A stretch of 64,000 nucleotides of DNA, taken from assembly GCF_016803135.1 (NCBI RefSeq), contig NZ_JAEVFE010000003.1, positions 1 to 64,000 of the forward strand, given 5' to 3'. This DNA is from Altererythrobacter sp. C41 (lineage in GTDB: Bacteria > Pseudomonadota > Alphaproteobacteria > Sphingomonadales > Sphingomonadaceae). The notes beneath the pieces are model-generated. The model was not told the DNA's origin and made no database searches. It was given only the letters and a program-made list of their open reading frames with translations. The position numbers and the translations under genes were made by a program. Below are positions 4,518 through 62,956 of the stretch, piece after piece. The number at the start of each line of letters is the position of its first letter. Positions within the stretch are counted from its first letter, which is position 1.

Positions 4518-4603
4518 CGCTCCGCCTCAGCGCCAGGAAACCGAAGTCGCGCTCATCCGGCAGGTAACAGGCGCGACATTGAAAAAGGTATGAACTGATT
4601 TCG

Positions 4604-5394: not shown

Positions 5395-5398
5395 TGCG

Positions 5399-6534: not shown

Positions 6535-6544
6535 CGAGGCGCAC

Positions 6545-7060: not shown

Positions 7061-7073
7061 GAAGGTTTGCCCG

Positions 7074-7601: not shown

Positions 7602-7681
7602 TCTCCCACCACTGACGCAAAACCCGAAGAGGTTGGCCCATCCGGAACCAGTGGCCGAGCGCACGTGTTCCTGGTGAAACG

Positions 7682-8053: not shown

Positions 8054-8071
8054 TCACACGGCCGCGCGGCC

Positions 8072-9322: not shown

Positions 9323-9335
9323 GACACGCCCGCCG

Positions 9336-11018: not shown

Positions 11019-11043
11019 GAGAAATGTTCCTTGCGTAATCGGT

Positions 11044-11886
11044 TCAGGCGCCGAGGCGGCTCAGCGTGGTGAAACTGGTGGTGATGTCTGGCAGGTACGG
11101 CGCCGGCGACTGGTCGTTCTCGACGTAGAGATGCCTGACGCCCGCCATATCGTTCAGGGTGAAGATGTCGGCGAAGTCGATCACGCCCTTGCCGACGCTG
11201 GTCATCGCGCCTTCGGCGGTCATGTCCTTCACGTGATAGGCGTAGACCCGGCCGGGCAGGCGGCGGATCAGCGCCTTGGCGTCCTGTCCGGCCTTGATCG
11301 CCCAGAACAGGTCGAGCTCGATGCCGAGGAGTTCGGGATCGCCCTCCGCAAGGAGAACGTCGAACAGAGTCCGATCGCCGTCCTTGTGCGTGAACTCGAA
11401 GTCGTGGTTGTGGTAGGCGAAACCCAGGCCCACCGCCTTGAGCCGCTCGGCAAAGCGGTTGAAGTCGGCGACTGCGCCGCGCCAGGCGGCGGCTTCGAGG
11501 AACTTCTCCTCCATCCACGGCACGATGATCGTGTCGGCGCCCAGTGTGCGCGCCATGGCCACCGTTTCATCGAACTTGCCCGCGAGCGCATCGTAGCCGA
11601 CGTGGATCGAGGGGGCAGTGAGGCCGAGCCGGTCCATCGCCTTGCGCAGCGCCGCGTGGTCCATCGCCTCGTACCCGCCGCCGCCATATTCGACCTCGCG
11701 GTAGCCGATCGCGGCCACCTTCTCGAGCGTGCCGATCGGATCGGGCGCGAACAACTCGCGCACGGTGTAGAGCTGGAGGCCGATCTTCCGCGCTGCCGGG
11801 GCGGCGCGGGCCGAGAGCGGTCCGGCCGCGAAGGCGGCTGCGAGGGCCACGCCGCCGGCTAGCATCTGCCGTCTGCTCGCCCTCAC
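11044..11886 (-). CDS. Tat-exported sugar phosphate isomerase/epimerase-like TIM barrel 1
   Basis: A 280-residue xylose-isomerase-like TIM barrel with a Tat signal (ASRRQMLAGGVALAAAFAAG) ending near residue 28. Metal-ligand-type motifs of the superfamily are visible: SIHVGYD, YHNHDFEF, GIELDLFW and YAYHVKDM. Its start overlaps the stop of the subunit 3 gene by four bases, and 25 bases separate it from the GMC gene. Exported members in this context act on 3-keto sugars or on the enolic products of 3-ketoglycoside cleavage, by hydration or isomerisation. That step is inferred from context rather than read from the residues. Confidence 0.85.
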   Translation of the reverse strand: MRASRRQMLAGGVALAAAFAAGPLSARAAPAARKIGLQLYTVRELFAPDPIGTLEKVAAIGYREVEYGGGGYEAMDHAALRKAMDRLGLTAPSIHVGYDALAGKFDETVAMARTLGADTIIVPWMEEKFLEAAAWRGAVADFNRFAERLKAVGLGFAYHNHDFEFTHKDGDRTLFDVLLAEGDPELLGIELDLFWAIKAGQDAKALIRRLPGRVYAYHVKDMTAEGAMTSVGKGVIDFADIFTLNDMAGVRHLYVENDQSPAPYLPDITTSFTTLSRLGA

Positions 11887-12440
11887 GACGAAAAGACCTT
11901 GGTGACGCTGGCGTAGGGATAAGCGCCGTCGTACTTGCCCGGAACGGGGAGGTATTCGCGTTCCTGCGTGATGCCGATTTCGGAGGTGTAGTAGCCGGTG
12001 ATGACGAGCTGGCGGAACTTGTCGAAGAAGTCCGCGCCGCCGGGAAGCTGATCGTTCATCGCCAGCGTCAGCAGAGCGTCCTGCTGCTCGGGCGTCGCGT
12101 CGGCAGCGGCGACCTTGTAGTCGCGCCGGCTGCGCGCCTCGATCGCGTCGAGCCCGGCGAGGATCGGCTCCTTGTCCTCAGGCCGGGCCCAGTCGGCGAG
12201 CAGCTTCTCGATGAACTGCGGCACTTCCGCCGCGATCGCGCCCGGTGTGTCGGTGGTGGGGATCACCCGTTCGCTCAGCGCACTCACCAGCGCACGCTGG
12301 CCGGCGGTGAATACCTCGCTGCTCGGCGGGCCGGTGTCGATCACCGCGACCTGGACCGAGGCCGCGCGCGCGATCGGCGCGAACAGCGTGGCTCCGAACA
12401 TGGCGACGATGCCCGCGAGGGCGTCTCTGCGATCGATCAC
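11883..12440 (-). CDS. Gluconate 2-dehydrogenase subunit 3-type protein, Tat-exported (LacC-type small subunit)
   Basis: The start is a GTG at 12440 overlapping the upstream stop (GTGA), giving 185 residues. The frame stays open farther upstream, but that part is antisense or shadow sequence inside the DUF1080 gene. The N-terminus is a Tat signal (DRRDALAGIVAMFG). The mature part holds the subunit 3 pattern SALSERVIPTTDTPGA early and DFFDKFRQLVITGYYTSE late. Small subunits of this family escort the GMC catalytic subunit through the Tat system and stabilise it. It is encoded two genes upstream of that subunit in the same operon. Confidence 0.87.
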   Translation of the reverse strand: MIDRRDALAGIVAMFGATLFAPIARAASVQVAVIDTGPPSSEVFTAGQRALVSALSERVIPTTDTPGAIAAEVPQFIEKLLADWARPEDKEPILAGLDAIEARSRRDYKVAAADATPEQQDALLTLAMNDQLPGGADFFDKFRQLVITGYYTSEIGITQEREYLPVPGKYDGAYPYASVTKVFSS

Positions 12441-49257: not shown

Positions 49258-49704
49258 ATGAAAGCTCTCGACGACGCCGATCGGCGGATCCTCAACCGCC
49301 TGCGACTCGATGCGCGGATCACCAACAGCGCGCTGGCTGCGGAGGTCGGTCTCTCGCCGTCGGCGTGCTTGCGACGCGTGAAGCTGCTTGAGGCGTCCGG
49401 CGTAATCCGGGGCTACACCGCGATCGTCTCGGGCACGGGACCGGACGAAGGGACGGTCGCCATCGTCGAAATCGAACTGGAGCGGCAGACCGAGGAGTAT
49501 CTCGCCCGCTTCGAATTCGCCCTGCGCCGCCATCCGGAGATTCAGGAGTGGTATCTGATGACCGGCAACGGCGATTATATCCTGCGCATCCAGATCGCCG
49601 GTATCGACGACTATGGCGAGTTCCACCGCGACGTCCTCTCCCGCCTGCCGGGTGTCTCGCGCATCACCTCGAGCTTCGCCATGCGCAGCCATCGCCGGCG
49701 GTAA
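49258..49704 (+). CDS. Lrp/AsnC-family transcriptional regulator
   Basis: A 148-residue regulator; the ATG at 49258 gives the typical Lrp start (MKALDDADRRILNRLRLDAR). The helix-turn-helix is ITNSALAAEVGLSPSACLRRV, followed by ASGVIRGYTAIV. The C-terminal RAM domain has EIQEWYLMTGNGDYILRI with the GNGDY ligand-loop motif. It is divergent from dadX-dadA and is most likely their alanine-responsive activator. Confidence 0.94.
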   Translation: MKALDDADRRILNRLRLDARITNSALAAEVGLSPSACLRRVKLLEASGVIRGYTAIVSGTGPDEGTVAIVEIELERQTEEYLARFEFALRRHPEIQEWYLMTGNGDYILRIQIAGIDDYGEFHRDVLSRLPGVSRITSSFAMRSHRRR

Positions 49705-49724
49705 ACCCGGGCTGCCGTGCGGCT

Positions 49725-50207
49725 CTAGAAGAGGCGTTCGGGGGAGCGGATCTCACCGTGCTGCGCTGTCTCGCTGCGCAGCAGGAGGAAAGCGAGGTGG
49801 CTCTCGCGCACCAGAAGCGCGGCAGCCACGGTCAGCGCGGCGAAGCCCAGCACGCCTGTGCCGATGGTCACCGCCACAGTCGCCTCGTAAGCCAGAGTTG
49901 CGCGCGGGATCAGTGCGCTGAGGAATGCAGCGAGCGTGCTGCCGGCAAAGGCTCCGACGGCGAGGTAGAGCGTCGAGATCGCCCGGATCGTGAGCAGGAC
50001 GCGGCGGTTGGCGATCCGCACCTGTCCGCGAAGCTCGATCGAGTTATCTGCCTGCGGCTCCTCGATCAGCGACTTGCCCAGCACGCGCGCGCGATCGACC
50101 GATCGGCCGAGCCGGTTGGCGGTGCTCAGCAACAGCACGGAGGTCGCGTTGGTCAGAAGGGCCGGTGCGCCGATCAGCGTCAGGGCGGAGTAGGTGTCGC
50201 CTATCAT
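49725..50207 (-). CDS. DUF2721 family membrane protein
   Basis: A 160-residue protein with three predicted membrane segments: an N-terminal GAPALLTNATSVLLLSTANR, then VLLTIRAISTLYLAVGAFAGS and ATVAVTIGTGVLGFAALTVAA. The RVLGKSLIEEPQADNS loop between helices one and two, with RRVLLTI, matches DUF2721. The function is unknown. It is convergent with the Lrp gene and divergent from the transducer-like cassette. Confidence 0.75.
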   Translation of the reverse strand: MIGDTYSALTLIGAPALLTNATSVLLLSTANRLGRSVDRARVLGKSLIEEPQADNSIELRGQVRIANRRVLLTIRAISTLYLAVGAFAGSTLAAFLSALIPRATLAYEATVAVTIGTGVLGFAALTVAAALLVRESHLAFLLLRSETAQHGEIRSPERLF

Positions 50208-50308
50208 CTCTCCTGAACGCGTTCGTCCCCCAGCCGATCCGGTGGCAATCCCGTGCGGGGAACGCGAGAGCGGGAATGCCGGTTGATCTGTCGCTGAAGG
50301 AGACGGAC

Positions 50309-50683
50309 ATGCCGGAAATCGGGCGCAGGCGCTGGGCGATCGCAGAAGGTTACATCCCAGGCGAGAGCAGCTTCGACGATCCCGCGCTCGTCTCGCACGA
50401 AACCGCCTGCATCCTGAACGCCGGAGATCGCGATGCGCAGGTGGAGATCACACTCTACTTTGCCGACCGCGAGCCGGTGGGGCCTTACCGCGCGTCGGTC
50501 CCCGCGCGGCGCACGCTGCACCTGCGATTCAACGATCTCGACGATCCGGAGCCCGTTCCCCGCGATACGGACTACGCCTCCGTCATCGAAGCGGACGTGC
50601 CGATCGTCGTCCAGCATTCGCGTCTCGATTCGCGCAGGAGCGAAGTCGCGCTGCTGACGACCATCGCCTACTCCGATGGGTGA
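50309..50683 (+). CDS. Sensory rhodopsin transducer (ASRT)-family protein, copy 1
   Basis: The ATG follows CTGAAGGAGACGGAC and gives 124 residues, the same size as the Anabaena transducer. An upstream ATG at 50276 is in frame but not supported. The family match is strong along the whole length: RRWAIAEGYIPG, ETACILNAGDRDAQVEITLYF, EPVGPYRASVPARRTLHLRF, DTDYASVIEADVPIVVQHSR and LLTTIAYSDG. In Anabaena the protein is soluble and pairs with a sensory rhodopsin. Published comparative work placed the fold among small-molecule-binding domains. No rhodopsin gene is in this window. Confidence 0.92.
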   Translation: MPEIGRRRWAIAEGYIPGESSFDDPALVSHETACILNAGDRDAQVEITLYFADREPVGPYRASVPARRTLHLRFNDLDDPEPVPRDTDYASVIEADVPIVVQHSRLDSRRSEVALLTTIAYSDG

Positions 50684-51947
50684 GGCGCCTGCCGCGTCTC
50701 GAGGCAGCACCTCCGCCTCGACCGTATGGCAGGCGACCGATCACGGCCTCGACGAGGACTGGCGCAATTGGTCCGGCAGCCTGCGCTTCCGGCCCTCGCA
50801 GGTCGAGGCGCCTGCGGGCGAGGGAGATCTTGCCGCTCTGGTGCGCCGATGTGCATCCGAAGGCCGCACGATCCGGCCGATCGGCGCGGCGCATTCCTCG
50901 ACCCCGATCATCGCGACGGACGACCTGCTCGTCTCGCTCGAGAAGCTCAGCGGGCTTTGCACGCACGATAAGGCGCGGGCGCGGGCAACGCTGGGCGCTG
51001 GGACCGAGCTCAAGAAGGCCGGCGACATGCTGCTCGAAGTCGGGTTGTCGATGCCCAATTTCGGCGACGTCGCGACGCAGCGGGTAGGCGGTGCGATGGG
51101 CACCGGGACGCACGGATCGGGTCGCACGCTGAACAACCTGTCGATGCCGCTGGTCGGCGGCCGGCTCGTCACTGCAACGGGTGACGTGCGCAGCTTCACC
51201 TGCGAGCAGGATCCCGACTTCGTGCGTGCGCTGCGCGTTTCCTTCGGCACGCTCGGCATTCTCACCGACGCGCAGTTGCAACTCGAACCGGCCGCGGAAT
51301 TGCACCGACAGGAATGGTGCACGACGCTGGACGAGTGCCTGCCGCGCCTCGATCACCTGGCCGACGAGAATCGCAACTTCGACTTCTACTGGTATCCGCG
51401 CAGCGACGAGGTGAAGCTGCGCTGCCTCAACCGGCCCGGAAAGAGCGCGGACTACAGTCATTTCGCGCGCCTGACGGAGGATCGGACCGGTTATCCGCAC
51501 CAAGTGATCCCCAAGCACGGCGGTCTCGCATACATGTTCGAGGAGATGGAATACGCCGTTCCCGCCGAAATGGGCGTGGAGTGCTTCCGCAAGGTCCGCC
51601 AGCGGATCATAGAAAAGTGGCGCCGGACGGTCGGCTGGCGCGTGCTCTATCGCTTCACCAAGGCGGACGACAGCTGGCTGAGCACCGCCCATGGCCGCGA
51701 GACCGTCACGATTTCGCTGCACCAGAACGCCACACTTCCGTGGGAAGACTATTTCGCCGATATCGAGCCGATCTTCCGCGACTGCGACGGCCGCCCGCAC
51801 TGGGCGAAGAAGCACAGCCTTACGGCTGCCGAACTGCGGCCACTCTATCCTAAGTGGGATGCGTTCATCGACCTGCGCCGCCGGATGGACCCGGACGGGG
51901 TGTTCCTGACGCCCTGGCTGCGGCGGTTGCTTGGCGTGAGCGCGTGA
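50676..51947 (+). CDS. FAD-linked sugar-1,4-lactone oxidase-like protein (ALO/GULO family)
   Basis: A 423-residue VAO-fold flavoprotein. The PP-loop is IRPIGAAHSSTP, where the His corresponds to the residue that carries covalent FAD in many family members. The next motif is VGGAMGTGTHGSGRTLNNLS. The C-terminal ALO domain has NFDFYWYPRSDEVKLRC and ends in the diagnostic CDGRPHWAKKHSL and RRRMDPDGVFLTPWL. It probably oxidises an aldonolactone or a sugar alcohol. It overlaps the transducer genes on both sides (by eight and four bases), so the three proteins are made together. Confidence 0.9.
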   Translation: MGEAPAASRGSTSASTVWQATDHGLDEDWRNWSGSLRFRPSQVEAPAGEGDLAALVRRCASEGRTIRPIGAAHSSTPIIATDDLLVSLEKLSGLCTHDKARARATLGAGTELKKAGDMLLEVGLSMPNFGDVATQRVGGAMGTGTHGSGRTLNNLSMPLVGGRLVTATGDVRSFTCEQDPDFVRALRVSFGTLGILTDAQLQLEPAAELHRQEWCTTLDECLPRLDHLADENRNFDFYWYPRSDEVKLRCLNRPGKSADYSHFARLTEDRTGYPHQVIPKHGGLAYMFEEMEYAVPAEMGVECFRKVRQRIIEKWRRTVGWRVLYRFTKADDSWLSTAHGRETVTISLHQNATLPWEDYFADIEPIFRDCDGRPHWAKKHSLTAAELRPLYPKWDAFIDLRRRMDPDGVFLTPWLRRLLGVSA

Positions 51948-52318
51948 CAGCGGGGTTCGGATCGACGCTCTGGGCGATAGGCGGAGGGCACATTCCGCTG
52001 CGCAGCACAGGGGCCGAGCCGGAGTTCACCAGCCGCGACCAGCTTTCGCTGCTCAATACCGGTGACGAGGAAGCGCGGATCGCGATCACCATCCACCATG
52101 CGCACCGGGAGCCGGTCGGTCCGTACGAGCTGAAACTGGGCGGTCGCCGCGTCCGCCGTGTGCGCTTCAACGATCTCATCTTCCCCGAGGCCATTCCGCT
52201 GGGCGTGCCCTTTGGCGCGATCGTCCGCGCGAGCGTGCCGATCGTTGTGCAGGTGACGCGGCTCGACAGCGGGCATGCCGAAGCGAGCTGGATGGGCACC
52301 ATGGCCCATCCGGCCTAG
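51944..52318 (+). CDS. ASRT-family protein, divergent copy 2
   Basis: The start is a GTG in the four-base overlap with the oxidase, giving 124 residues, exactly the length of copy 1. Shared features are LWAIGGGHIP, QLSLLNTGDEEARIAITI, HREPVGPYELKLGGRRVRRVRFNDL and VPIVVQVTRLDS. The first segment (SRDQ for SHET) and the C-terminus (SWMGTMAHP for LSTIAYA-type) have diverged. It may bind a different ligand or form a mixed oligomer with copy 1 (inference). Confidence 0.85.
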   Translation: MTAGFGSTLWAIGGGHIPLRSTGAEPEFTSRDQLSLLNTGDEEARIAITIHHAHREPVGPYELKLGGRRVRRVRFNDLIFPEAIPLGVPFGAIVRASVPIVVQVTRLDSGHAEASWMGTMAHPA

Positions 52319-52324
52319 GCCGTG

Positions 52325-53482
52325 TCAGCCGAGAATCGCCACGCTGCGCAGAATCAGGCGGACGAGCTCCGTCTGGCGGCTGACCCCGACTTTGGCGAAG
52401 ATCCGCTTGGAGTAGGAGCGCACGGTGCTTTCCGTCAGGCCCAGCTCCTCGGCCGCCTCGGTCAGCGAGAACCCTTGCGTGAGCAGGGCGGCAAGGCCCG
52501 CTTCGGAGGGGGAGAGATCGAACAGGGCGGCGATCAACTGCTCGAACGTGGCGCCGGGCGCGGGGTCGGTCGCATAGACGATCGCCCCGGGGCTGGCGTC
52601 GATCGGCGCCGCACGCTCCCGCTCGATGGCGCGCACGAGAATGCCAAGACCCTCGTTGGCTGGGTCGGCGCAGCGGAAGGCACGGACGAGGCCGGCGCCC
52701 GAGTTCTCGATCCGGCTCAGCAACGCTTCCTTCACGATCCGCTCGAACTTGCGCGAGTCGGTCCTCCCCCCGACCGCCAGGTGCCGGTCGGCGAGGCGGA
52801 AGGTCTCGCCGCGATCGATCTTTGCCTCGGCCGCCTTGTTCATGCGCAGCACGCGGCCGCGCCCGTCGAGGATGAAGGTCGCAATGGTGAGGCGGTCGAG
52901 CGTGGAGGTGAGCACGCCGATCTGGCTCTCGTCGCGCTGGATGCGCGAGAACAGCTCCAGCGCGATCTGCACATGCGGTCGCAGCGCGGCCATCAGCGCC
53001 TTGTGCCGTGCGGTGAAGCGGAAGCTTTCGGAATGCGCGACCAGCCCGAGGTTGCACTCGATCCCGCCGGGCTCCGCCACATACATGCCGAGCGCCTGCG
53101 CGATGCCGTAAGGCTTCATGATCTCCAGGTAGAACTCGTCGCGTTCCAGGCCTTCGCGCGGGGCGACTTCCTCCAGCAGCAGGATCTCGCCGGTGCGCTT
53201 CAGCGCATTGCTCATCGGGTCGAGGTCGCCGAGCGCCGCCTGGCGCGAGTGGATCGTGCGCGCCACTTCCGGATCGACCGCCGGCGGCTCCGCCCATAGC
53301 GTGACCGAGGCGAGCCCCTTGCGGCTGAGCTGGAGCGAGATCGCCGCGTTGTCGCACCCCGCCGTCTCCGCCAGCGCACGCAGGAAGGCGCGCCAGGGTT
53401 CGAGCTCGATCGGGCCGCGATAGAGCGTCGCCAGCAGCTCGGGATCGAGTGCCATTGTTTCGGTCTTCGCCCGCGCCGTCAT
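52325..53482 (-). CDS. LuxR-type transcriptional regulator (TeiR-like)
   Basis: The ATG at 53482 overlaps the SDR stop (ATGA), giving 385 residues; the open frame farther upstream is the antisense or shadow part of the SDR gene. A long N-terminal region has no recognisable domain except a PAS-like patch (TIATFILDGRGRVLRMNKAAE). The C-terminal LuxR helix-turn-helix is at about residues 325-375 (GFSLTEAAEELGLTESTVRSYSKRIFAKVGVSRQTEL). Its size and layout recall TeiR, the testosterone-responsive regulator of Comamonas. It lies beside a steroid-degradation operon and is likely its activator. Confidence 0.85.
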   Translation of the reverse strand: MTARAKTETMALDPELLATLYRGPIELEPWRAFLRALAETAGCDNAAISLQLSRKGLASVTLWAEPPAVDPEVARTIHSRQAALGDLDPMSNALKRTGEILLLEEVAPREGLERDEFYLEIMKPYGIAQALGMYVAEPGGIECNLGLVAHSESFRFTARHKALMAALRPHVQIALELFSRIQRDESQIGVLTSTLDRLTIATFILDGRGRVLRMNKAAEAKIDRGETFRLADRHLAVGGRTDSRKFERIVKEALLSRIENSGAGLVRAFRCADPANEGLGILVRAIERERAAPIDASPGAIVYATDPAPGATFEQLIAALFDLSPSEAGLAALLTQGFSLTEAAEELGLTESTVRSYSKRIFAKVGVSRQTELVRLILRSVAILG

Positions 53483-54234
53483 CCGCCGCCATCCTGTGCG
53501 AGAGCGAGAAACGCCGGGATCTCGCCTCCGCCGTGCAACTCGATTGCAGCGCCGGAGACGTAGGCGGCCTCGGGTGAGGCCAGCCAAGTCACGCAGGCTG
53601 CCACGTCGTGCCCGCGCGCCATGCGCTTCATCGGCAGCGTGGCGCCGAGCCGCGCGACGCCTTCCGCACCGCCGTAATGCTCGATCTGATCGGGATTCTC
53701 GACCAGGCCGATCACGATCGCGTTGACCCGAACGTCCGGGCCCCATTCCATCGCCAGGCCCTTCGTCGCGCTGATCAGCCCGGCCTTCGCCGCGCCGTAA
53801 GCGACCGTACCGGGCGCCGCCCGCAGACCTGAGATGCTGGCGATGTTGACCACCGAACCGCTCGCCTCGCGCAAGGCGCCGTAGGCCGCGCGCGCGAGGA
53901 CGAGCGGCGCGGTCAGGTTGAGCGCGATCACTTTCTCGAGCAGTTCGGGCGAAGCGTCGGCGACCGCCACCGCCGGCGTTCCACCGGCATTGTTGACCAG
54001 CAGGTCGAGGCGCCCCAATCGCTGCGTTGTCGCCGCCACCAGCGCTTCGACCGCGGCGGGATCGCGCACGTCGGTCGGCAGGAACAGCGCTTCTCTCCCT
54101 GCGGCCGCTACCAGCTCCCCGGGTGCACGGCGCGCGCAGACGGCGACCTGCCATCCGTCGGTGAGCAGCCGTTCGGCAATCGCGCGTCCGATGCCGCGCG
54201 TTCCCCCGCTGATCAATGCGACGCGTTCGCTCAT
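53479..54234 (-). CDS. Short-chain dehydrogenase/reductase beside the steroid operon
   Basis: A 251-residue classical SDR starting at 54234; the longer frame would add a 53-residue arginine-rich stretch without family similarity. Cofactor site SGGTRGIGRAIAERLL, NNAGGTPAVAVADAS, catalytic S-Y-K in VNIASISGLRAAPGTVAYGAAKAG, and a C-terminal AAYVSGAAIELHGGGEIPAF. It may be a hydroxysteroid or 3-hydroxyacyl dehydrogenase, but the exact substrate is not readable. It is divergent from ipdA and overlaps the regulator gene. Confidence 0.88.
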   Translation of the reverse strand: MSERVALISGGTRGIGRAIAERLLTDGWQVAVCARRAPGELVAAAGREALFLPTDVRDPAAVEALVAATTQRLGRLDLLVNNAGGTPAVAVADASPELLEKVIALNLTAPLVLARAAYGALREASGSVVNIASISGLRAAPGTVAYGAAKAGLISATKGLAMEWGPDVRVNAIVIGLVENPDQIEHYGGAEGVARLGATLPMKRMARGHDVAACVTWLASPEAAYVSGAAIELHGGGEIPAFLALAQDGGG

Positions 54235-54303
54235 GTCCGTACCGTGTCCTCTCTCGCCTCGTCTGGAGCCTATCCCCGGACACCGCAAGTCGCCGTCACC
54301 AAA

Positions 54304-54328
54304 TGGGGGTATCGGCCGATCGCCCCCA
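54304..54328. promoter_or_regulatory. Inverted repeat in the divergent SDR/ipdA promoter region
   Basis: The arms TGGGGG (54304-54309) and CCCCCA (54323-54328) flank ATCGGCCGAT (54311-54320), itself a perfect palindrome. The site lies 44 bases ahead of ipdA in the 137-base divergent gap. It is the best operator candidate for the nearby LuxR-type regulator; binding is inferred. Confidence 0.45.
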
Positions 54329-54371
54329 GTCGCATTTCTCGGATCGGGAAGAGAGGATTGAACGACCGGCC

Positions 54372-55256
54372 ATGCCGACGATTGACAAGACAATGGACGC
54401 CGCCGCGGTGGTCTCGCGGCTACGGAACGGTATGACGCTGGGGATCGGCGGATGGGGTCCGCGCCGCAAGCCGATGGCGCTGGTGCGCGAGATCCTGCGG
54501 TCGGACCTCACCGATCTGACTCTGGTTTCGTACGGCGGCCCCGAAGTCGGCATGCTGTGCGCGGCGGGCAAGGTCAGGAAGCTCGTCTTCGCGTTCGTCT
54601 CGCTCGACGAGATCCCGCTCGAACCCTGGTTCCGCAAGAGCCGCGAAGCCGGCGCGATCGAGGTGCTGGAGCTTGACGAGGGCATGTTCCAGTGGGGCCT
54701 CAAGGCCGCGGCGTTCTCCGTGCCGTTCCTGCCGACGCGGGTCGGGCTCGGGACCGATCTCATCGAACTGGGCGGGCTCAAGACCGTCACCTCGCCCTAT
54801 GAGGACGGCGAGGTTCTGGCCGCCATGCCTGCGCTGAAGCTCGACGCGGCACTGATCCACGTCCACCGCGCCGATCGCCGGGGCAACGTCCAGGCGCTTG
54901 GTCCCGACACTTATTACGACGAGTGGTTCGCCAAGGCGGCGGCCGAATGCTTCGTCTCCTGTGAGGAGCTGGTCGATGCGATGGAGGTCTCCTACCCGGA
55001 GGACGTCAGGGCCAACCTGTTCGAACGGTGCTTCGTGACCGGCGTCGCCGAGACGCCCGGCGGGGCCCATCCGACGACGATGCCGCCCGCCTACGGCTGG
55101 GACATGGGCTGGTTGAAGAAATATGCAGCCGCGGCCAAGGATCCGGGCGACTGGAGCGCAGTGGCCGAATGGACGGTGGGTGCGAGCGAGGCGGACTATC
55201 TCGCCTCGGTCGGCGGGCATAAGGAAGTGGCGGCGCTGCCGCTGCCGGTGTTCTGA
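54372..55256 (+). CDS. ipdA: Steroid ring-cleaving CoA hydrolase, alpha subunit (IpdA/ScdL1-like)
   Basis: The ATG at 54372 gives 294 residues, close to mycobacterial IpdA. It is a class I CoA-transferase alpha fold: TLGIGGWGPRRKPMALVREIL, LTLVSYGGPEVGMLCAAGKV, FAFVSLDEIPLEPWF, LELDEGMFQWGLKAAAFSVPFLPTRVGLG and LDAALIHVHRADRRGNVQALG. In M. tuberculosis, IpdAB opens the last carbocyclic ring of the steroid nucleus, acting on COCHEA-CoA, instead of transferring CoA. The gene order here repeats that set, which supports the name. It opens the operon. Confidence 0.87.
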   Translation: MPTIDKTMDAAAVVSRLRNGMTLGIGGWGPRRKPMALVREILRSDLTDLTLVSYGGPEVGMLCAAGKVRKLVFAFVSLDEIPLEPWFRKSREAGAIEVLELDEGMFQWGLKAAAFSVPFLPTRVGLGTDLIELGGLKTVTSPYEDGEVLAAMPALKLDAALIHVHRADRRGNVQALGPDTYYDEWFAKAAAECFVSCEELVDAMEVSYPEDVRANLFERCFVTGVAETPGGAHPTTMPPAYGWDMGWLKKYAAAAKDPGDWSAVAEWTVGASEADYLASVGGHKEVAALPLPVF

Positions 55257-56047
55257 TGGGCGCTTCGCTGGCAGAACTGTGCATCGTCGCCTGTGCGGAA
55301 GCGTTCCGCACGAGCCGCGAGATCATCGCAACCGGGATCGGGCCGATCCCCCGCCTCGGCGCGGGGCTGGCCAAGCTCACCCATTCGCCCGGCTTGATGA
55401 TGACCGACGGCGAGGCGTTCCTAGTGGAGCAGCCGGTGCCGCTCGGTGCGACGGGCGATGAACGCCCCGCGCCCGCCGGATACCTCCCGTTCTCGCGCTT
55501 CTTCGACAGCGCGGTGTGGACCGGCCGCCGCCACGCGATGGTCACGCCGACGCAGATCGACCGCTTCGGACAGACCAACCTTTCGGCGCTCGGCGGCACG
55601 CATGCGCAGCCCAAGGTGCAGATGCTCGGCGCGCGGGGTTTCCCGGGCAACGGCATCTATCACCCGAACTCGATGTTCATCCCCGCCCACTCGACGCGCG
55701 TGTTCGTCGCGGGCGAAGTCGACCGGGTCTCCAGCCCCGGGTACAATCCGGCGCGGCGCGTGCAGGGCGGAAACTACAGCGGCATCGAGCTGCGCCGGAT
55801 CGTCACCGACCTCTGCGTCATGGATTTCGGCGGCCCTGATCATGCGATCCGCGTAATCTCGCTCCACTCCGGCGCGACCTTCGCGCACGTGCAGGATGCG
55901 ACCGGCTTCGAGCTGATCGACGCAGTGGAAGGCGAAACGCCGCTACCGGGCGAGGAGCAACTGGCGCTGATCGCCCGGCTGGACCCGCACGGCATCCGCG
56001 CGCGGGTGTTCAAGGACGACCCTCCGGCAGAAAGGAGCGCGTCATGA
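55256..56047 (+). CDS. ipdB: Steroid ring-cleaving CoA hydrolase, beta subunit (IpdB/ScdL2-like)
   Basis: A 263-residue class I CoA-transferase beta-type subunit sharing one base with the ipdA stop. It has AELCIVACAEAFRTSREIIATGIGPIPRLGAGLAKLTHSPG, HPNSMFIPAHSTRVFVAGEVDRVSS and VTDLCVMDF. Where true CoA-transferases carry the catalytic SENG glutamate loop, this protein has MTDGEAFLV, consistent with the hydrolase role known for IpdAB. The pair would act as a heterotetramer in the cytoplasm. Confidence 0.87.
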   Translation: MGASLAELCIVACAEAFRTSREIIATGIGPIPRLGAGLAKLTHSPGLMMTDGEAFLVEQPVPLGATGDERPAPAGYLPFSRFFDSAVWTGRRHAMVTPTQIDRFGQTNLSALGGTHAQPKVQMLGARGFPGNGIYHPNSMFIPAHSTRVFVAGEVDRVSSPGYNPARRVQGGNYSGIELRRIVTDLCVMDFGGPDHAIRVISLHSGATFAHVQDATGFELIDAVEGETPLPGEEQLALIARLDPHGIRARVFKDDPPAERSAS

Positions 56048-56955
56048 CCGAGCCCGGCAACGACGGCCTCGAGCCGCCGACCCCCAGCGAGCACGTCTAC
56101 GAGACCGACGAGCCGGTTCTCTACGAAGCCGCAGGCGGGATCGCGCGCGTCACGCTCAACCGACCGCGCTATCACAACGTCCAGAATAGCCAGATGACTT
56201 ACGCGCTGGACGATGCGTTCCGGCGCGCGGTGGATGACGATGCGGTCAAGGTGATCGTGCTCAAGTCCGACGCCAAGCACTTCAGCGCGGGGCACGACAT
56301 CGGCTCGCCCGGGCGGGACTTCCACGCGAGCGTCGACCGGCGGCTCATGTGGTACGACCACGCCAACAAGGCCGGCGCCGAGAAAGCCTATATTCGCGAG
56401 CAGGAACAGTATCTCGGCATGTGCAAGCGCTGGCGGGACATTCCCAAGCCGACGATCGCGCAGGTCCACGGCGGATGCATCGCCGGCGGGCTGATGCTGG
56501 CCTGGGTCTGCGATCTGATCGTCGCTTCGGACGACGCGTTCTTTCAGGACCCGGTGCTGCAGATGGGCTTCCCGGGCCTCGAATACTTCGCCCATTGCCA
56601 CGAGCTCAACGTGCGGATCGCCAAGGAATTCCTGTTCCTCGGCGAGCGGATGAGCGCGCAGCGCGCTTACGAGATGGGCATGGTCAATCGCGTCGTGGCG
56701 CGGGCCGATCTCGAGGCCGAGGTTGCTCGCATCGCCGGCCGCATCGCCGAGCAGCCGCGGCTGGCGCTCCAGCTTGCCAAGCAGGCCTGCAACCACATGG
56801 AGACGCTCGCGGGCAAGAACGCCGGGATCGATGCGGCCTTCGGCTACCACCACTTCGCCCACGCCAACAACACGTTGGTCAAGGGCGACTACATCGCCGG
56901 GTTCGACGGCAAGAGAATGGCCGAGAAGAACAAGCGGCAGACGGGCGAGGACTGA
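56044..56955 (+). CDS. Enoyl-CoA hydratase/isomerase-family protein (long form)
   Basis: A 303-residue crotonase, about 45 residues longer than usual. The N-terminal 25 residues are extra, and an insert (RDFHASVDRRLMWYDHANKAG) follows the oxyanion segment AKHFSAGHDIGSPG. The second oxyanion motif is VHGGCIAGGLMLAWVCDLIVAS, then FQDPVLQMGFPGLEYF. The C-terminus is YIAGFDGKRMAEKNKRQ. Four-base overlap with ipdB. It probably hydrates or processes a ring-derived enoyl-CoA in steroid breakdown; the exact step is not known. Confidence 0.88.
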   Translation: MTEPGNDGLEPPTPSEHVYETDEPVLYEAAGGIARVTLNRPRYHNVQNSQMTYALDDAFRRAVDDDAVKVIVLKSDAKHFSAGHDIGSPGRDFHASVDRRLMWYDHANKAGAEKAYIREQEQYLGMCKRWRDIPKPTIAQVHGGCIAGGLMLAWVCDLIVASDDAFFQDPVLQMGFPGLEYFAHCHELNVRIAKEFLFLGERMSAQRAYEMGMVNRVVARADLEAEVARIAGRIAEQPRLALQLAKQACNHMETLAGKNAGIDAAFGYHHFAHANNTLVKGDYIAGFDGKRMAEKNKRQTGED

Positions 56956-56958
56956 CGC

Positions 56959-58047
56959 TTGGCCGACCCGCTCGCCACTCCGCTGACCGACCTGCTCGGC
57001 TGCCGCCTGCCGGTGGTGCAGACGGCGATGGGCTGGATCGCGACGCCGCGCCTGGTGGCGGCGAGCAGCAATGCCGGGGCGTTCGGATTCTTGGCGGGCG
57101 CGGTGATGAAGCCGGCCGAACTGGCCGACGCGATCGCGGAGACCGGCAGGCTCACGCCGCACCGGTTCGGGGTCAACTTCCACAGCTTCCAGCCCGGCGC
57201 GCGCGAGATCGTCGAGGTGATCCTCGCGAACAGCGAGCGCGTCGGCGCGGTGAGTTTCGGGCGTGGGCCCGATGCCGGAATGATCGCGCGGTTCAACGAG
57301 GCTGGGATCGTCTGCATGCCGACCGTCGGTGCGGTGAAGCATGCCGAGAAGATGGTCGCGCTTGGGTGCCGGGCGATCACCGTTCAGGGCGGCGAGGGTG
57401 GCGGCCATACCGGCTCGGTCGCGACGACGGTGCTGCTGCCGCAGGTTCTGGACGCGGTGGGCGTGCCGGTCGCTGCCGCAGGCGGGTTTGCCGACGGGCG
57501 CGGCCTCGCGGCGGCGCTCGCGTGGGGCGCGAGCGGGATCGCCATGGGATCGCGCTTCATGATGACCGCCGACAGCCCGGTGCCCGAGGCGGTCAAGGCC
57601 GCCTATACGCGTGCGGGGACCGGCGACATCTTCGTCACCGACCGGATCGACGGCATTCCGCAGCGGATGATCCGCAATCCGATGCTCGACCGCATCGAGA
57701 GCGGTGGCGCGCTCGGCAAGTGGAGCCGCGGTCTTACCGCCGCCTTCGCGATGAAGCGCGCGACGGGGGCAAGCTGGGCCGACCTGCTCGCCAGTGCTCA
57801 GGCGATGCGGAGCGAGGGTGGCAAGTCCCTTCCCGAAGCCATGCTCGCCGCCGCCGCGCCCGTGCTGCTGCAGAAGGCCGTGGTGGAGGGCGATGCGGTG
57901 GGCGGTCTCATGGCCTCCGGCCAGGTCGCGGGCCGGCTCTCCGATCTGCCGACCTGCGCCGAGCTTCTCGCCCGGATCGAAACCGAAGCGCGCGAGCGGA
58001 TCGCGGCGCTCGCCGGCCGCACGGCCGCAATCGAGGGAGCTGCGTGA
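56959..58047 (+). CDS. ipdC: Nitronate monooxygenase-family flavin oxidoreductase (IpdC-like)
   Basis: A 362-residue TIM-barrel FMN protein, probably starting at TTG. Motifs: LGCRLPVVQTAMGWIATPRLVAASSNAGAFGFL, VNFHSFQPGA, GGEGGGHTGSVATTVLLPQV (phosphate and catalytic His region), AAGGFADGRGLAAALAWGASGIAMGSRFM. In mycobacteria IpdC sits next to ipdAB and takes part in C/D-ring breakdown as a flavin-dependent reductase or dehydrogenase of a ring CoA ester. Position and length agree. Annotation as a nitronate monooxygenase alone would be misleading here. Confidence 0.85.
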   Translation: MADPLATPLTDLLGCRLPVVQTAMGWIATPRLVAASSNAGAFGFLAGAVMKPAELADAIAETGRLTPHRFGVNFHSFQPGAREIVEVILANSERVGAVSFGRGPDAGMIARFNEAGIVCMPTVGAVKHAEKMVALGCRAITVQGGEGGGHTGSVATTVLLPQVLDAVGVPVAAAGGFADGRGLAAALAWGASGIAMGSRFMMTADSPVPEAVKAAYTRAGTGDIFVTDRIDGIPQRMIRNPMLDRIESGGALGKWSRGLTAAFAMKRATGASWADLLASAQAMRSEGGKSLPEAMLAAAAPVLLQKAVVEGDAVGGLMASGQVAGRLSDLPTCAELLARIETEARERIAALAGRTAAIEGAA

Positions 58048-58796
58048 TGCCGATTGGCTGGTCCGTGGAAGAGCGCATTGCCGAAGTGGTGTTCGACGTG
58101 CCGCCGGTCAACGCGTTCGATTCCGCGACCTGGCTCAAGCTGCCGGGCATCATCGGTTCCCTGGCCGTGCGGCAGGACGTGCACTGCATCCTGATCCGCG
58201 CCGAGGGGCGGGGCTTCTGCGGGGGCGTCGATATCAAGGAAATGCAGGCGCATCCCGAGCGCATCGCCGAACTCAACCGCGGTAACTATCTGACTTTCAA
58301 GGCTGTTCGAGCCGCCGAGATCCCGGTGGTGAGCGCAGTGCACGGCTTCGTGATCGGGGGCGGCATCGGCATTTGCGGCGCGTCGGACACGATCATCGCC
58401 GCCGAGGACGCCTATTTCTCGCTGCCCGAGATCGACCGCGGGGCGATGGGCGGGGCGAGCCATCTGTCGCGGATGTTGCCGCTGCACAAGGTGCGGGCGG
58501 CGTTCTTCACCGGCGGCAAAATTCCCGCGGAAGAGGCCTGGCGGCTCGGCGCCATCGAGAAAATCGTGCCGCGCGAAGAGCTTAGGGCAGAGGCGCGCGC
58601 GTTCTGCGCCACGATAGCCGCGAAGAGCAGAAAGGCACTTACAGTAGCCAAGGAGGCACTGAACGGCCTCGAGGAGCGCGACGTCGACCGCGGCTACCGC
58701 TGGGAACAGGGTTTCACGCTCGAAATGTACATGCACGAGGACAGCCAGCGGTCGCGCGACGCGTTCGTCGAGACCGGCGGGGCGGCGAAGTTCTGA
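58047..58796 (+). CDS. echA20: Enoyl-CoA hydratase-family ring hydrolase (EchA20-like)
   Basis: A 249-residue crotonase starting at the ATG that shares a base with the ipdC stop; the much longer open frame upstream is a shadow. Oxyanion motifs GRGFCGGVDIKEM and VHGFVIGGGIGICGASD, then SLPEIDRGAMGGASHLSRMLPLHK. The length equals mycobacterial EchA20, which hydrolyses the D-ring of the bicyclic steroid CoA intermediate, and the neighbours are the same (ipdC, ipdAB, fadE30, fadA6). The specific name rests mainly on context. Confidence 0.82.
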   Translation: MPIGWSVEERIAEVVFDVPPVNAFDSATWLKLPGIIGSLAVRQDVHCILIRAEGRGFCGGVDIKEMQAHPERIAELNRGNYLTFKAVRAAEIPVVSAVHGFVIGGGIGICGASDTIIAAEDAYFSLPEIDRGAMGGASHLSRMLPLHKVRAAFFTGGKIPAEEAWRLGAIEKIVPREELRAEARAFCATIAAKSRKALTVAKEALNGLEERDVDRGYRWEQGFTLEMYMHEDSQRSRDAFVETGGAAKF

Positions 58797-59959
58797 TGGA
58801 TCTCGCCTATACTCCCCGGCAGCAGGCTTTCCGGCAGGAGGTGCGCGAGTGGCTTGCCGCGCACGTTCCGGCCGAGCGGCTGGTCACGCTCGAGCGGCAG
58901 GACGGCTTCGACCAGCACGTCGCGTGGGAGCGCGAGCTGGCGAGCGGCAACTGGGGCATGGTGACCTGGCCGAGCGAATACGGCGGGCGCGGGCTCGACC
59001 TGATCGAGTGGCTGATCTTCGAGGAGGAATACTGGGCCGCCGGCGCGCCGCTGCGGGCGAACCAGAACGGCATCTTCCTGCTCGGCCCGACGATCATGGA
59101 ATTCGGTTCGGACGAGCAGAAGGCGCGCTTCCTGCCGCCGATGGCGAGGGGCGAGGTGATCTGGGCGCAGGCGTGGTCGGAGCCCGGCGCGGGCAGCGAC
59201 ATGGCGGCGATCAAGACCACCGCGCGGAGAGATGGCGATCACTACGTCATCAACGGGCAGAAGACCTGGTCGAGCCGCGCGAGCTTTGCCGACTGGGGCT
59301 TCGGCCTGTTCCGCACCGAGGAAGGGAGCCAGCGGCACAAGGGCCTCTCGTTCCTGCTGTTCGACCTGAACGCGCCCGGCATCACCCGACGCCCGATCCG
59401 CCAGCTTCACGGCGACCCGGGATTTGCCGAGCTGTTCTTCGACGAAGTCCGCGTGCCCGTGGAGAACCGCATCGCGGGCGAGGGCGAGGGCTGGAAGGTG
59501 GCGATGGCGACCGCGGGCTTCGAGCGCGGGCTGATGCTGCGCTCCCCCGGCCGTTTCCAGGCGACCGCCGCGCGGCTGATGGCCCTGCTGCGCGAGGCGG
59601 CGGACCGCGCCTCGCCGGGGCTGCGCGAGGAGGTCGTGCGGCTGTGGATGGGCGCGCAGGCCTATGCCTACAACACCTATCAGGTCGCGGCGCGGATCAT
59701 GGCCGGCGGCTCGATCGGGGCCGAGGCGAGCCTGAACAAGATCTTCTGGTCCGAACTCGACCGCGCGATGCACCGCGCGGCGATGCACCTGCTCGGCCCC
59801 GCCGCCGAACTGCAGACCCTGCCTGACGGCCGCGCGAACGAATGGCTCGAAGGGTACATCTTCTCGCTCTCCGGTCCGATCTACGCCGGCTCGAACGAGA
59901 TCCAGCGCAACATCACCGCCGAGCGCCTGCTCGGCCTGCCGCGCGTGGGAGCGGGCTGA
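58796..59959 (+). CDS. Acyl-CoA dehydrogenase (FadE30-like)
   Basis: A 387-residue acyl-CoA dehydrogenase with N-terminal YTPRQQAFRQEVREWLAAHVP, WAQAWSEPGAGSDMAAIKTTA (FAD and substrate loop), KTWSSRASFADW, and C-terminal YAGSNEIQRNITAERLLGLP. At the YxGSNEIQ position the usual base glutamate of the YEG motif is Ala. A glutamate in FERGLML may act instead, as in related steroid enzymes. Mycobacterial homologues form alpha2-beta2 complexes with a partner such as the next gene product. It probably dehydrogenates HIP-CoA or a derivative. Confidence 0.87.
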   Translation: MDLAYTPRQQAFRQEVREWLAAHVPAERLVTLERQDGFDQHVAWERELASGNWGMVTWPSEYGGRGLDLIEWLIFEEEYWAAGAPLRANQNGIFLLGPTIMEFGSDEQKARFLPPMARGEVIWAQAWSEPGAGSDMAAIKTTARRDGDHYVINGQKTWSSRASFADWGFGLFRTEEGSQRHKGLSFLLFDLNAPGITRRPIRQLHGDPGFAELFFDEVRVPVENRIAGEGEGWKVAMATAGFERGLMLRSPGRFQATAARLMALLREAADRASPGLREEVVRLWMGAQAYAYNTYQVAARIMAGGSIGAEASLNKIFWSELDRAMHRAAMHLLGPAAELQTLPDGRANEWLEGYIFSLSGPIYAGSNEIQRNITAERLLGLPRVGAG

Positions 59960-60891
59960 TGGATTTCGGACTTCCACCGGAAAGCGTCGAACTGGCCGAG
60001 GCCGTGCGCGAATACCTTGCCGGCACGCATGGACCGGACGTGCTGCGGCGGCTCGACGCCGGCGGCAACCGCGACCTGCGCATCTGGCAGGGCCTCGTCG
60101 AAATGGGCCTGACCGGACTGCTCGTGCCCGAGAGCGAGGGCGGGCTGGGCATGACGCTGCTGGGCGGCGCCCTGATCGCCCGCGAATGCGGCCGCGCCTG
60201 CCTGGCCGAGCCGCTGGTCGACACCGCGCTGATCGCGGTGCCGTGGCAAATCGCGCGCGGCGAGACGGGTGACCTCGCGGCCATCGCGGCGGGCGAGAAG
60301 CTCGTCGCCCTGCCGCACGCGGCGAACCCGTGGGTCGCCGACGGGGAGGGCGACGAGTTCGCGAGCGTCGACCCGCTGCGCAACCTCGTCGCCGCGCCCG
60401 AGGACGCCGGCGACGATCCCCTGCTGCTCGATCTCGGCGCGCTGACGAGCGCGGCGCAGCTCGTCGGGCTGGCCGAGGCCATGCTCGACCAGGCGGTCGC
60501 TTATGCACAGGTGCGCGAGCAGTTCGGCCATGCGATCGGCGGGTTCCAGGCGATCAAGCACAAGCTGGCCGACGTTGCCGTTGCGCTCGAATTCGTGCGC
60601 CCGGTGCTGTGGCGCGCGGCGCAGGCGATGGACGACGGGCTGGCGAGCGCGCCGCTGCACGTCAGCCACGCCAAATATGCCGCGACCGATGCCGCCTACC
60701 TCGCCGCCGAAAGCGCGATCCAGGTCCACGGCGCGATGGGCTATACCTACGAGGTCGATCTCCATTTCTGGATGAAGCGCGCATGGGCGCTCGCCGGCGC
60801 ATGGGGCGACCGCAATTTCCACTATCACCGGATCGAGGACGCCGCGCTCGGCGGCGCGCACCCCCTCGGCCCGCAGCACACGTTCGCCTGA
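59959..60891 (+). CDS. Acyl-CoA dehydrogenase, short partner subunit
   Basis: A 310-residue acyl-CoA dehydrogenase lacking part of the middle beta domain, typical of the non-catalytic or partner subunits of steroid FadE heteromers. Motifs: LVPESEGGLGMTLLGGALIARECGR, AYAQVREQFGHAIGGFQAIKHKLADV, and VHGAMGYTYEVDLHFWMKRAWALAG. The start shares a base with the stop of the previous gene, supporting a paired complex. Confidence 0.86.
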   Translation: MDFGLPPESVELAEAVREYLAGTHGPDVLRRLDAGGNRDLRIWQGLVEMGLTGLLVPESEGGLGMTLLGGALIARECGRACLAEPLVDTALIAVPWQIARGETGDLAAIAAGEKLVALPHAANPWVADGEGDEFASVDPLRNLVAAPEDAGDDPLLLDLGALTSAAQLVGLAEAMLDQAVAYAQVREQFGHAIGGFQAIKHKLADVAVALEFVRPVLWRAAQAMDDGLASAPLHVSHAKYAATDAAYLAAESAIQVHGAMGYTYEVDLHFWMKRAWALAGAWGDRNFHYHRIEDAALGGAHPLGPQHTFA

Positions 60892-60898
60892 GGAGCCG

Positions 60899-62050
60899 AT
60901 GGCCGAAGCCTATATCATCGACGCGGTCCGTACCCCGATCGGGCGCAAGAAGGGATCGCTGGCGCAAGTGCATCCCGCCGATCTCGCCGCGCACCCGCTG
61001 CGGGTGCTGGTCGAGCGGACGGGCATCGACGCGAACGCGGTCGACGACTGCGTATGGGGCTGCTGCGATACGATCGGCCCGCAGGCCGGGGACATCGGCC
61101 GCACGGCATGGCTCGTCGCCGGCCTGCCCCAGCATGTCCCCGGAACGACGGTCGACCGCCAGTGCGGCTCCAGCCAGCAGGCGGTCCATTTCGCCGCGCA
61201 GGGCGTGATGAGCGGCACGCAGGACCTCGTCGTCGCGGGCGGCAGTCAGGCGATGAACGCGATCCCGATCTCCGCCGCGATGTTCGCCGGCCAGCCTTAC
61301 GGCTTCGACAATCCGTTCAACACCGCGCGCGGGTGGGTCGAGCGCTACGGCGACGGCCTTCTCAACCAGATCAATTCGGCCGAGATGATCGCCGGGAAAT
61401 GGAACATCTCGCGCGAGGCGATGGAGCGGTTCGCGCTCGCCAGCCACGAGCGCGCACAGGCGGCGTGGGACAACGGCTGGTTCGATGCCGAGGTGGCGCC
61501 GCTGGAAGGGCTCGACCGCGACGAGACGATCCGCCCGAACACGACGCTGGAAGGGCTCGCCGCGCTCAGTCCGGTGCAGGAAGGCGGGCGCGTCACCGCA
61601 GGGGTCGCGAGCCAGAACTGCGACGGCGCGGCCGCGCTGCTGATCGCTTCCGAGCAGGCGGTGAAGGACCACGGCCTCACGCCGCGCGCGCGCATCCACC
61701 ACATCTCGGTGCGGGCCGACGATCCGGTGTGGATGCTGACCGCGCCGATCCCGGCGACCCAGCATGCGCTGCGAAAGGCCGGAATGACGGTCGCGGACAT
61801 CGACCTGTTCGAATGCAACGAGGCCTTCGCCAGCATCCCGATGGCGTGGATGCAGGAGCTCGGCATTCCGCACGAGAAGGTCAACGTCCAAGGCGGCGCG
61901 ATCGCGCTCGGCCATCCGCTGGGCGGCACGGGCGCGCGGCTGATGACCACGCTGCTCGGCGCGCTGGAGCGCACCGGCGGCCGCTACGGCCTGCAGACCA
62001 TGTGCGAGGGCGGCGGCCAGGCCAACGTCACGATAATCGAGAGGCTTTGA
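60899..62050 (+). CDS. fadA6: Acetyl-CoA acetyltransferase / thiolase (FadA6-like)
   Basis: A 383-residue thiolase with nucleophile C89 (TVDRQCGSSQQAVHFAA), H339 (LGHPLGGTGARLM) and C369 (TMCEGGGQANVT). The N-terminus AYIIDAVRTPIGRKKGS and the ECNEAFA motif are canonical. In the mycobacterial KstR2 set, FadA6 performs thiolytic cleavage in late steroid ring degradation; the shared gene neighbourhood suggests the same here. Confidence 0.9.
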   Translation: MAEAYIIDAVRTPIGRKKGSLAQVHPADLAAHPLRVLVERTGIDANAVDDCVWGCCDTIGPQAGDIGRTAWLVAGLPQHVPGTTVDRQCGSSQQAVHFAAQGVMSGTQDLVVAGGSQAMNAIPISAAMFAGQPYGFDNPFNTARGWVERYGDGLLNQINSAEMIAGKWNISREAMERFALASHERAQAAWDNGWFDAEVAPLEGLDRDETIRPNTTLEGLAALSPVQEGGRVTAGVASQNCDGAAALLIASEQAVKDHGLTPRARIHHISVRADDPVWMLTAPIPATQHALRKAGMTVADIDLFECNEAFASIPMAWMQELGIPHEKVNVQGGAIALGHPLGGTGARLMTTLLGALERTGGRYGLQTMCEGGGQANVTIIERL

Positions 62051-62053
62051 CGA

Positions 62054-62956
62054 ATGGGGATCTGCGAAGGCAGGACTGTGATCATTACCGGCGCGGCGCG
62101 CGGGCTGGGCCGCGCCTATGCGCTGGCCTTCGCCGCCGAGGGTGCCAATGTCGTCGTCAACGACATCGGCGCCTCGCTGGGCGGCGAAGGGCGCGACACG
62201 TCGGCTGCGGACGCGGTGGTCGAGGAAATCGTTCGGAGCGGCGGGAAGGCCGTCGCCAACTACGACGACGTGACCGACTGGGACGCGGCCGGGCGGATCG
62301 TCGAGACCGCGGTGCGCGAGTTCGGCGACCTCCACGTGGTGGTCAACAACGCCGGGATCGTCCGCGACCGGATGTTCGTCTCCGCCACGCTCGACGAATG
62401 GGACGCGACCATGCACGTGCATCTGCGCGGGCACTTCTGCGTCAGCCGCCATGCGGTCGATTACTGGCGCGGCAAGGCCAAGGCGGGCGAAGCGCCCGAT
62501 GCGCGGATCATCAATACGACCAGCGGCGCGGGGCTGCAGGGCTCGATCGCGCAGGCCGCCTATTCGACCGCCAAGGGCGGGATCGCCACGCTCACGCTGG
62601 TCCAGGCGGCCGAGCTCGGCCGCTACGGCATTACCGCCAATGCGCTGGCGCCTGCCGCGCGGACGCGCATGACCGAGCAGGCCTTCGCCGAGAAGATGGC
62701 GACCGAGGGCGACGCCTTCGACACGATGGACCCGGCCAATGTCGCGCCGGCGGTCGTCTGGCTCGGCAGCGCGCAGAGCGCCAAGGTGACCGGCTGCGTG
62801 TTCGAGCTCGAGGGCGGCAAGATCATGCTCGAAGACGGCTGGCGCGAAGGGCCGTTCGTCGACAAAGGCGCGCGGTGGGCGCCGGGCGAGGTGGGCGAAG
62901 CGGTGGATCGGCTGCTCGCCGAACGCATGCCGCCCCGCAAGGTCTGGGGCACCTGA
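62054..62956 (+). CDS. SDR-family 3-hydroxyacyl-CoA dehydrogenase (17-beta-HSD4-like)
   Basis: A 300-residue SDR resembling the N-terminal domain of peroxisomal multifunctional protein 2. Cofactor site ITGAARGLGRAYALAFAAEGANVVVND, the NDIGASLGGEG insert, NNAGIVRDRMF, catalytic S in IINTTSGAGLQGS and Y/K in YSTAKGG, and AAELGRYGITANALAPAARTRMT. About 40 extra C-terminal residues follow a GKIMLEDGW segment. It probably oxidises a 3-hydroxyacyl-CoA before FadA6 cleavage. Confidence 0.88.
   Translation: MGICEGRTVIITGAARGLGRAYALAFAAEGANVVVNDIGASLGGEGRDTSAADAVVEEIVRSGGKAVANYDDVTDWDAAGRIVETAVREFGDLHVVVNNAGIVRDRMFVSATLDEWDATMHVHLRGHFCVSRHAVDYWRGKAKAGEAPDARIINTTSGAGLQGSIAQAAYSTAKGGIATLTLVQAAELGRYGITANALAPAARTRMTEQAFAEKMATEGDAFDTMDPANVAPAVVWLGSAQSAKVTGCVFELEGGKIMLEDGWREGPFVDKGARWAPGEVGEAVDRLLAERMPPRKVWGT

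Follow-up and report, generated by a model that had tools for sequence, protein, structure and literature searches.

The window analysed here is a 64,000-nucleotide stretch of the Altererythrobacter sp. C41 genome (contig NZ_JAEVFE010000003.1, positions 1 to 64,000, forward strand). It carries three consecutive genes that encode two homologues of the Anabaena sensory rhodopsin transducer (ASRT), referred to below as ASRT1 and ASRT2, and, between them, a flavoprotein of the ALO type (Table 1). The first two genes overlap by 8 nt (ATGGGTGA) and the last two by 4 nt (GTGA), which confirms the arrangement described in an initial sequence-only reading, namely two 124-residue ASRT proteins placed around an ALO-type flavoprotein, with overlapping genes on both sides. 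In profile searches, both ASRT proteins cover the full PF07100 domain (186 bits for ASRT1 and 142 bits for ASRT2, with a cut-off of 25), and a search of the whole genome returned these two members of the family only. The flavoprotein matches PF04030 with 157.7 bits (cut-off 23.1) and FAD_binding_4 with 69.8 bits (cut-off 26.4). The two ASRT copies differ, as the same reading had stated, in the first conserved block (SHETACILN in ASRT1, SRDQLSLLN in ASRT2) and at the C-terminus (VVQHSRLDSR and VVQVTRLDSG, respectively).

Table 1. Genes and promoter motif of the ASRT1-ALO-ASRT2 locus (positions in the window).
Feature	Position	Strand	Description	Profile match
EcfG/RpoE2-type general-stress promoter motif	50259-50284	+	GGAAC-N17-GGTT; ends some 25 nt upstream of ASRT1	
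ASRT1	50309-50683	+	ATG start, 124 aa	PF07100, 2.3e-55
ALO-type (VAO-fold) flavoprotein	50676-51947	+	423 aa	PF04030, 5.7e-46, plus FAD_binding_4
ASRT2	51944-52318	+	GTG start, 124 aa	PF07100, 1.1e-41

ASRT genes, whatever their type, are uncommon: they were found in 7 of 199 relatives and in 5 of 398 genomes from the order. Two congeners have ASRT1 alone at the corresponding chromosomal site, flanked by Lrp-type and LuxR-type regulators. The flanks align with those of the window at 84-91% identity, the solo ASRT1 proteins are 89% identical to ASRT1 of the window, and the segment 50684-52318 is simply missing. A recent foreign origin of ALO-ASRT2 was considered and set aside, as the composition gives no signal of it (GC 66-68% compared with 66% for the window; GC3 82-83%). 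The immediate surroundings contain two further features. The Lrp-type regulator is separated from ASRT1 by a DUF2721 membrane-protein gene (49725-50207, minus strand), and this gene with its upstream region (49704-50297) is missing at the equivalent site in both congeners. On the other side, the cassette adjoins a CoA-dependent degradation cluster (53479-62956) encoding an SDR, an enoyl-CoA hydratase, a FabK/nitronate-monooxygenase-like protein, a thiolase, another SDR, a pimeloyl-CoA-dehydrogenase-like acyl-CoA dehydrogenase and two unclassified subunits that resemble a CoA-transferase pair; we take this cluster to be similar to those of steroid-ring catabolism.

Beyond this strain, the order ASRT1-ALO-ASRT2 was found in Sinorhizobium meliloti, in Ensifer and in the haloarchaeon Natrononativus. 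Natrialba magadii, Deinococcus deserti, Microbacterium album and another actinomycete have ALO-ASRT2 but no ASRT1 in front of it, and in Nitrosospira the pair is followed by a convergent ASRT1. The ALO-ASRT2 pair thus spans Alpha- and Betaproteobacteria, Actinomycetota, Deinococcota and haloarchaea. Since the three-gene order is kept outside the strain, and no rhodopsin gene was found beside the cassette, neither of the two results named in advance as contrary to the sequence-only reading occurred. Other ASRT genes were encountered in various contexts. In one genome of the rhizobial order, at about 296266-297048, a truncated ASRT gene of which the C-terminal 43 positions are present directly precedes an intact ASRT, and a third copy lies elsewhere. 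Conjugative Klebsiella plasmids bear ASRT genes (for example, Klebsiella pneumoniae plasmid NZ_CP132652), with a sugar MFS transporter, an SDR and a mandelate-racemase-family enzyme as neighbours. On the Sphingobium plasmid AP027322, an ASRT1 gene annotated as hypothetical adjoins a MarR regulator and an ectoine/hydroxyectoine operon.

When 52 ASRT proteins were placed in a tree, all nine that are encoded directly downstream of an ALO gene formed one clade (97/93) with no other ASRT inside it. The nine ASRT-linked ALO proteins likewise form a single clade (100/99), and no ASRT was found beside any of 20 other ALO genes within the flanking DNA examined. Recurrence in eight lineages, together with these exclusive clades, rules out a chance neighbourhood. 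The 4-nt ALO/ASRT2 overlap is present in six of the eight lineages, and the distances of ALO and ASRT2 are correlated (r 0.87, Mantel p 5e-4), a result that joint inheritance would likewise produce without any contact. Because the pair is rare, the ASRT2 clade comprises nine sequences from eight lineages, some of them on long branches. ASRT1 of the window groups in the ASRT tree with the solo ASRT1 of the congeners, and the ASRT1 tree indicates that such a gene joined the pair at least four separate times; it stands next to the pair in four unrelated lineages. On the evidence of the clades and the ASRT1 tree, the symmetric ASRT-ALO-ASRT bracket of the sequence-only reading has to give way to a different picture, in which ALO-ASRT2 is a fixed pair and ASRT1 is a separate, canonical gene that has been added to it several times.

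The name of the family and the Anabaena precedent are all that speaks for light signalling through a rhodopsin encoded elsewhere, and we regard this explanation as so improbable that it hardly merits consideration. A profile search for type-1 rhodopsins (PF01036), the family to which all our rhodopsin searches refer, gave no match in the Altererythrobacter genome, which sets it apart from the Anabaena ASRT precedent. The search itself works, because rhodopsins were detected in 4 of 50 genomes or records. Type-1 rhodopsins are absent from all five genomes with the ALO-ASRT2 pair that were searched in full (this one included) and from three plasmids that carry the pair; light signalling as the role of this locus was rejected on these grounds. 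Among ten ASRT-positive genomes of the family, a rhodopsin was present in one only, on other contigs. The absence of a rhodopsin, and a role other than light signalling, both proposed from the sequence, were therefore borne out.

The flavoprotein scores above the cut-off of TIGR01679, bacterial FAD-linked oxidoreductases (337.4 bits; cut-off 292.25), and far under that of TIGR01678, sugar 1,4-lactone oxidases (184.2 bits; cut-off 396.8). Its model, predicted from an alignment (pLDDT 88; plasmid-derived rows were excluded from the structure-model alignments), reaches Z 48 with alditol oxidase (AldO) and 47.8 with GalDH, within a range of 46-48. The FAD-binding His73 is conserved, and R326 and K378 are invariant in 25 ALO sequences. 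The difference that marks the ASRT-linked clade lies at the position of the sugar-contacting Glu (Glu386 of GalDH, Glu320 of AldO), which was placed by alignment to 2vfr. Here, Leu (Leu324 in the window) is found in 9/9 ASRT-linked proteins and in 0/20 others, 17 of which have Glu. Further clade-specific residues are W321, R322, Y240, R242, R249, R310 and N351. Arg326 and Lys378 match the catalytic pair of GalDH, Arg388/Lys456, and Gly130 occupies, in the alignment to 2vfr, the gatekeeper position of GalDH Ala113, at which Gly goes with oxidase activity (PMC11099136). The FAD is probably bound covalently, by homology, and the protein is predicted to be an oxidase with a small carbohydrate-like substrate.

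The ASRT-linked ALO clade can thus be set against the aldonolactone oxidoreductases and alditol oxidases (GalDH, GULO, fungal ALO and AldO). The fold, the FAD-His, the Arg/Lys pair and the gatekeeper Gly are common to both, whereas the clade has W-R-x-L-x-R, with Leu for Glu, instead of [FY]-P-x-E-x-R, additional conserved Arg residues and, throughout the sample, ASRT2 downstream. The additional arginines, together with the missing Glu, may point to a substrate that is anionic or differs in some other way. The oxidation of aldonolactones, which the sequence-only reading had proposed, is doubtful, since the Glu is replaced by Leu in the whole clade and the TIGR01678 score is so low. An aldonolactone or alditol oxidase of the conventional kind (GULO/ALO/AldO-like), accompanied by accessory proteins, would account for the PF04030 and TIGR01679 matches, the fold similarity to alditol oxidase (Z 48) and GalDH (47.8) and the retained catalytic Arg/Lys, but we consider it unlikely in view of the Leu in nine of nine proteins at the substrate-contacting position, the clade-specific W321, R322, R242, R249, R310 and N351, and the 184 bits reached with TIGR01678 against a cut-off of 397.

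The ASRT2 partner has its own altered site. On the basis of ethanediol in a Thermotoga structure, de Souza et al. suggested that the SHExxCxxN signature contacts the ligand through its His and Cys (PMC2739507), and the signature was described as almost absolutely conserved in the ASRT-like solo branch. ASRT1 retains it as SHETACILN. In ASRT2, the corresponding SRDQLSLLN does not match, and for this reason ASRT2 is a member of the ASRT family by profile that lies outside the canonical solo branch. The predicted ligand-contact His (His31) is replaced in eight of nine ALO-linked ASRT proteins and in 0/43 others; the loss is not universal, because ASRT2 of Natrononativus retains SHEKLC. The Cys is replaced in some ALO-linked proteins, including ASRT2 of the window, the Tyr that precedes IP is His in 7/9 of them, and the VVQH histidine of most ASRT1 proteins becomes V, F, L or W in ASRT2. 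The predicted ASRT2 model (pLDDT 83) has the ASRT fold, with 2ii7 as the best match and 1nc7 as a further one; the fold is assigned to ASRT2 from this model and to ASRT1 from sequence only. Compared with the solo intracellular ASRT/ASRAH branch (Anabaena ASRT, 2II7; Thermotoga TM1070, 1NC7), both window proteins are full-length by profile, and the likeness extends to the canonical signature of ASRT1, the modelled fold of ASRT2 and the sugar-enzyme neighbourhood. ASRT2 differs in forming an ALO-coupled clade, in the usual replacement of the ligand-contact His and in the loss of the VVQH histidine. The earlier suggestion that the two copies bind different ligands is probably correct, as ASRT2 does not possess the proposed His/Cys contact pair (PMC2739507).

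DNA binding and looping, as well as binding to a phycoerythrocyanin promoter, have been reported for Anabaena ASRT (PMC8660804), and by this precedent ASRT1 and/or ASRT2 could act as DNA-binding regulators of the operon or of neighbouring genes. We find such a role decidedly unlikely, given that no evidence for a conserved operator was seen here, that the association is with enzymes and that ASRT2 always follows the enzyme gene.

The upstream sequence of ASRT1 suggests a link to the general stress response. Of 17 alphaproteobacterial ASRT1 genes, 10, that of the window included, are preceded within 150 nt by a strict EcfG motif, and seven are not. The motif was found before 0/24 ASRT1 genes of other classes or phyla and 0/9 ASRT2 genes. 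The background is 0.011 per 150 bp, and the binomial estimate for 9/15 is about 1e-14. Within the window alone, the motif occurs at chance level (2 seen, 1.6 expected); only the cross-locus comparison is informative, not the single window match. The spacing agrees with that of the EcfG motif determined for Sphingomonas melonis Fr1, GGAAC-N17-20-GTT (PMC6599016), and NepR, a core part of the general stress response, is present in this genome. For S. meliloti, no published RpoE2 control of ASRT1, ALO or ASRT2 was found in main texts, searched via inferred locus tags. The ASRT1 operon is predicted to be stress-induced and co-transcribed.

A wider setting in sugar metabolism is suggested by the closest parallel, the ASRT1-ALO-ASRT2-treS-LLM run of Sinorhizobium pSymB, which has the same order as the window, an ALO with 63% identity and an EcfG-type motif before ASRT1. 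In S. meliloti, ASRT2 overlaps by 4 nt a gene for a GH13 protein of the treS_nterm family, which scores under the cut-off of that model, as do the other TreS-like proteins described here. This gene, judging from locus-tag order, would be smb20099, which has been called treS (PMC4960864). It is followed by TIGR03885, an FMN-dependent LLM oxidoreductase homologous to F420-dependent glucose-6-phosphate dehydrogenase. While on pSymB these two genes continue the same run, in Altererythrobacter they lie about 39 kb downstream of the cassette, in a run that encodes a membrane PQQ glucose/quinate dehydrogenase, the LLM flavoenzyme, a TreS-like GH13 and an EamA transporter. The run (C3:82000-99000, 2618-12327 in that piece) further contains hemerythrin and YetF-like genes, and TIGR03885 with EamA recurs in Nitrosospira. 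The treS_nterm-family GH13 adjoins TIGR03885 in S. meliloti, Microbacterium and this genome, and TIGR03885 also lies near ALO-ASRT2 in D. deserti and Nitrosospira. Across 19 genomes, TIGR03885 scored above the cut-off in 6/6 with the pair (two of the six being near relatives) versus 3/13 without it; the solo-ASRT1 congeners have it as well.

Taking these results together, we lean, with a confidence slightly above even, towards a co-inherited module of a flavo-oxidase and ASRT2, which in this strain is part of a stress-induced sugar-oxidation operon. In the proposed mechanism, ALO would accept a hydride from a small, carbohydrate-like molecule, with O2 as electron acceptor and H2O2 as product. 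ASRT2, made in a fixed ratio to ALO via the 4-nt overlap, would be a partner dedicated to this enzyme, either as a subunit or as an allosteric regulator, and its pocket would have diverged from one that suits the canonical ASRT ligand. ASRT1, induced by general stress, may read a sugar metabolite through its canonical pocket and act on the enzyme or together with ASRT2. The setting would be the handling of glucose or alpha-glucosides at times of stress, along with the TreS-like GH13 and the TIGR03885 flavoenzyme. The oxidase activity of ALO, its substrate, its physical complex with ASRT2 and the sensing role are predictions from sequence comparison.

An alternative would retain the ordinary sugar operon proposed in 2009, in which the ASRT proteins are free cytosolic sugar binders that loosely tune an oxidase, with no dedicated partnership. 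It accords with the model that de Souza et al. based on gene neighbourhoods (PMC2739507) and with the many unrelated enzymes encoded beside ASRT genes: ASRT1 neighbours elsewhere include SDR, FMN dehydrogenase, GH3, TPP enzyme, GMC and GH15, as well as a universal stress protein and ectoine genes. However, it leaves unexplained a separate ASRT2 clade with an altered pocket, found in our sample only beside ALO, and the equal exclusivity of the ALO clade; we see it as possible, though somewhat improbable. A bolder version of the co-inherited module, to which we give a low probability as a whole, would make ASRT2 an obligate subunit, needed to complete or gate the active site of ALO, so that the loss of the Glu in ALO and the remodelled ASRT2 pocket belong to a single change. 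The resulting hetero-oligomeric oxidase would, under stress, produce H2O2 from a perhaps anionic sugar derivative, and metabolites bound by a mixed ASRT1/ASRT2 ring would tune it.

The sequence-only reading had presented the locus as a candidate for an undescribed system, and this holds in part. ASRT genes next to sugar enzymes, amylases (in Sinorhizobium) and an FAD-dependent oxidoreductase were published in 2009 (de Souza et al., PMC2739507), so the general idea of linking ASRT with sugar enzymes is not new. The ASRT2-ALO subfamily pair is the part that stands: the literature searched contained no description of the ASRT2 subfamily and its exclusive tie to the altered-site ALO clade, or of the EcfG motif upstream of ASRT1, and no paper that joins the sensory rhodopsin transducer with a lactone oxidase or with the general stress response.

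The name ASRT implies a light-signalling role that most owners of the gene cannot have, and what the family does otherwise has been deduced from neighbouring genes. A constant pairing of enzyme and ASRT, in which both partners show matching residue changes and which spans two domains of life and includes the model symbiont Sinorhizobium meliloti, allows ASRT function to be tested directly by biochemistry and genetics. The ALO-ASRT finding would link ASRT to the alphaproteobacterial general stress response and, if the obligate-subunit reading is true, ALO would be the first enzymatic partner for the ASRT family.
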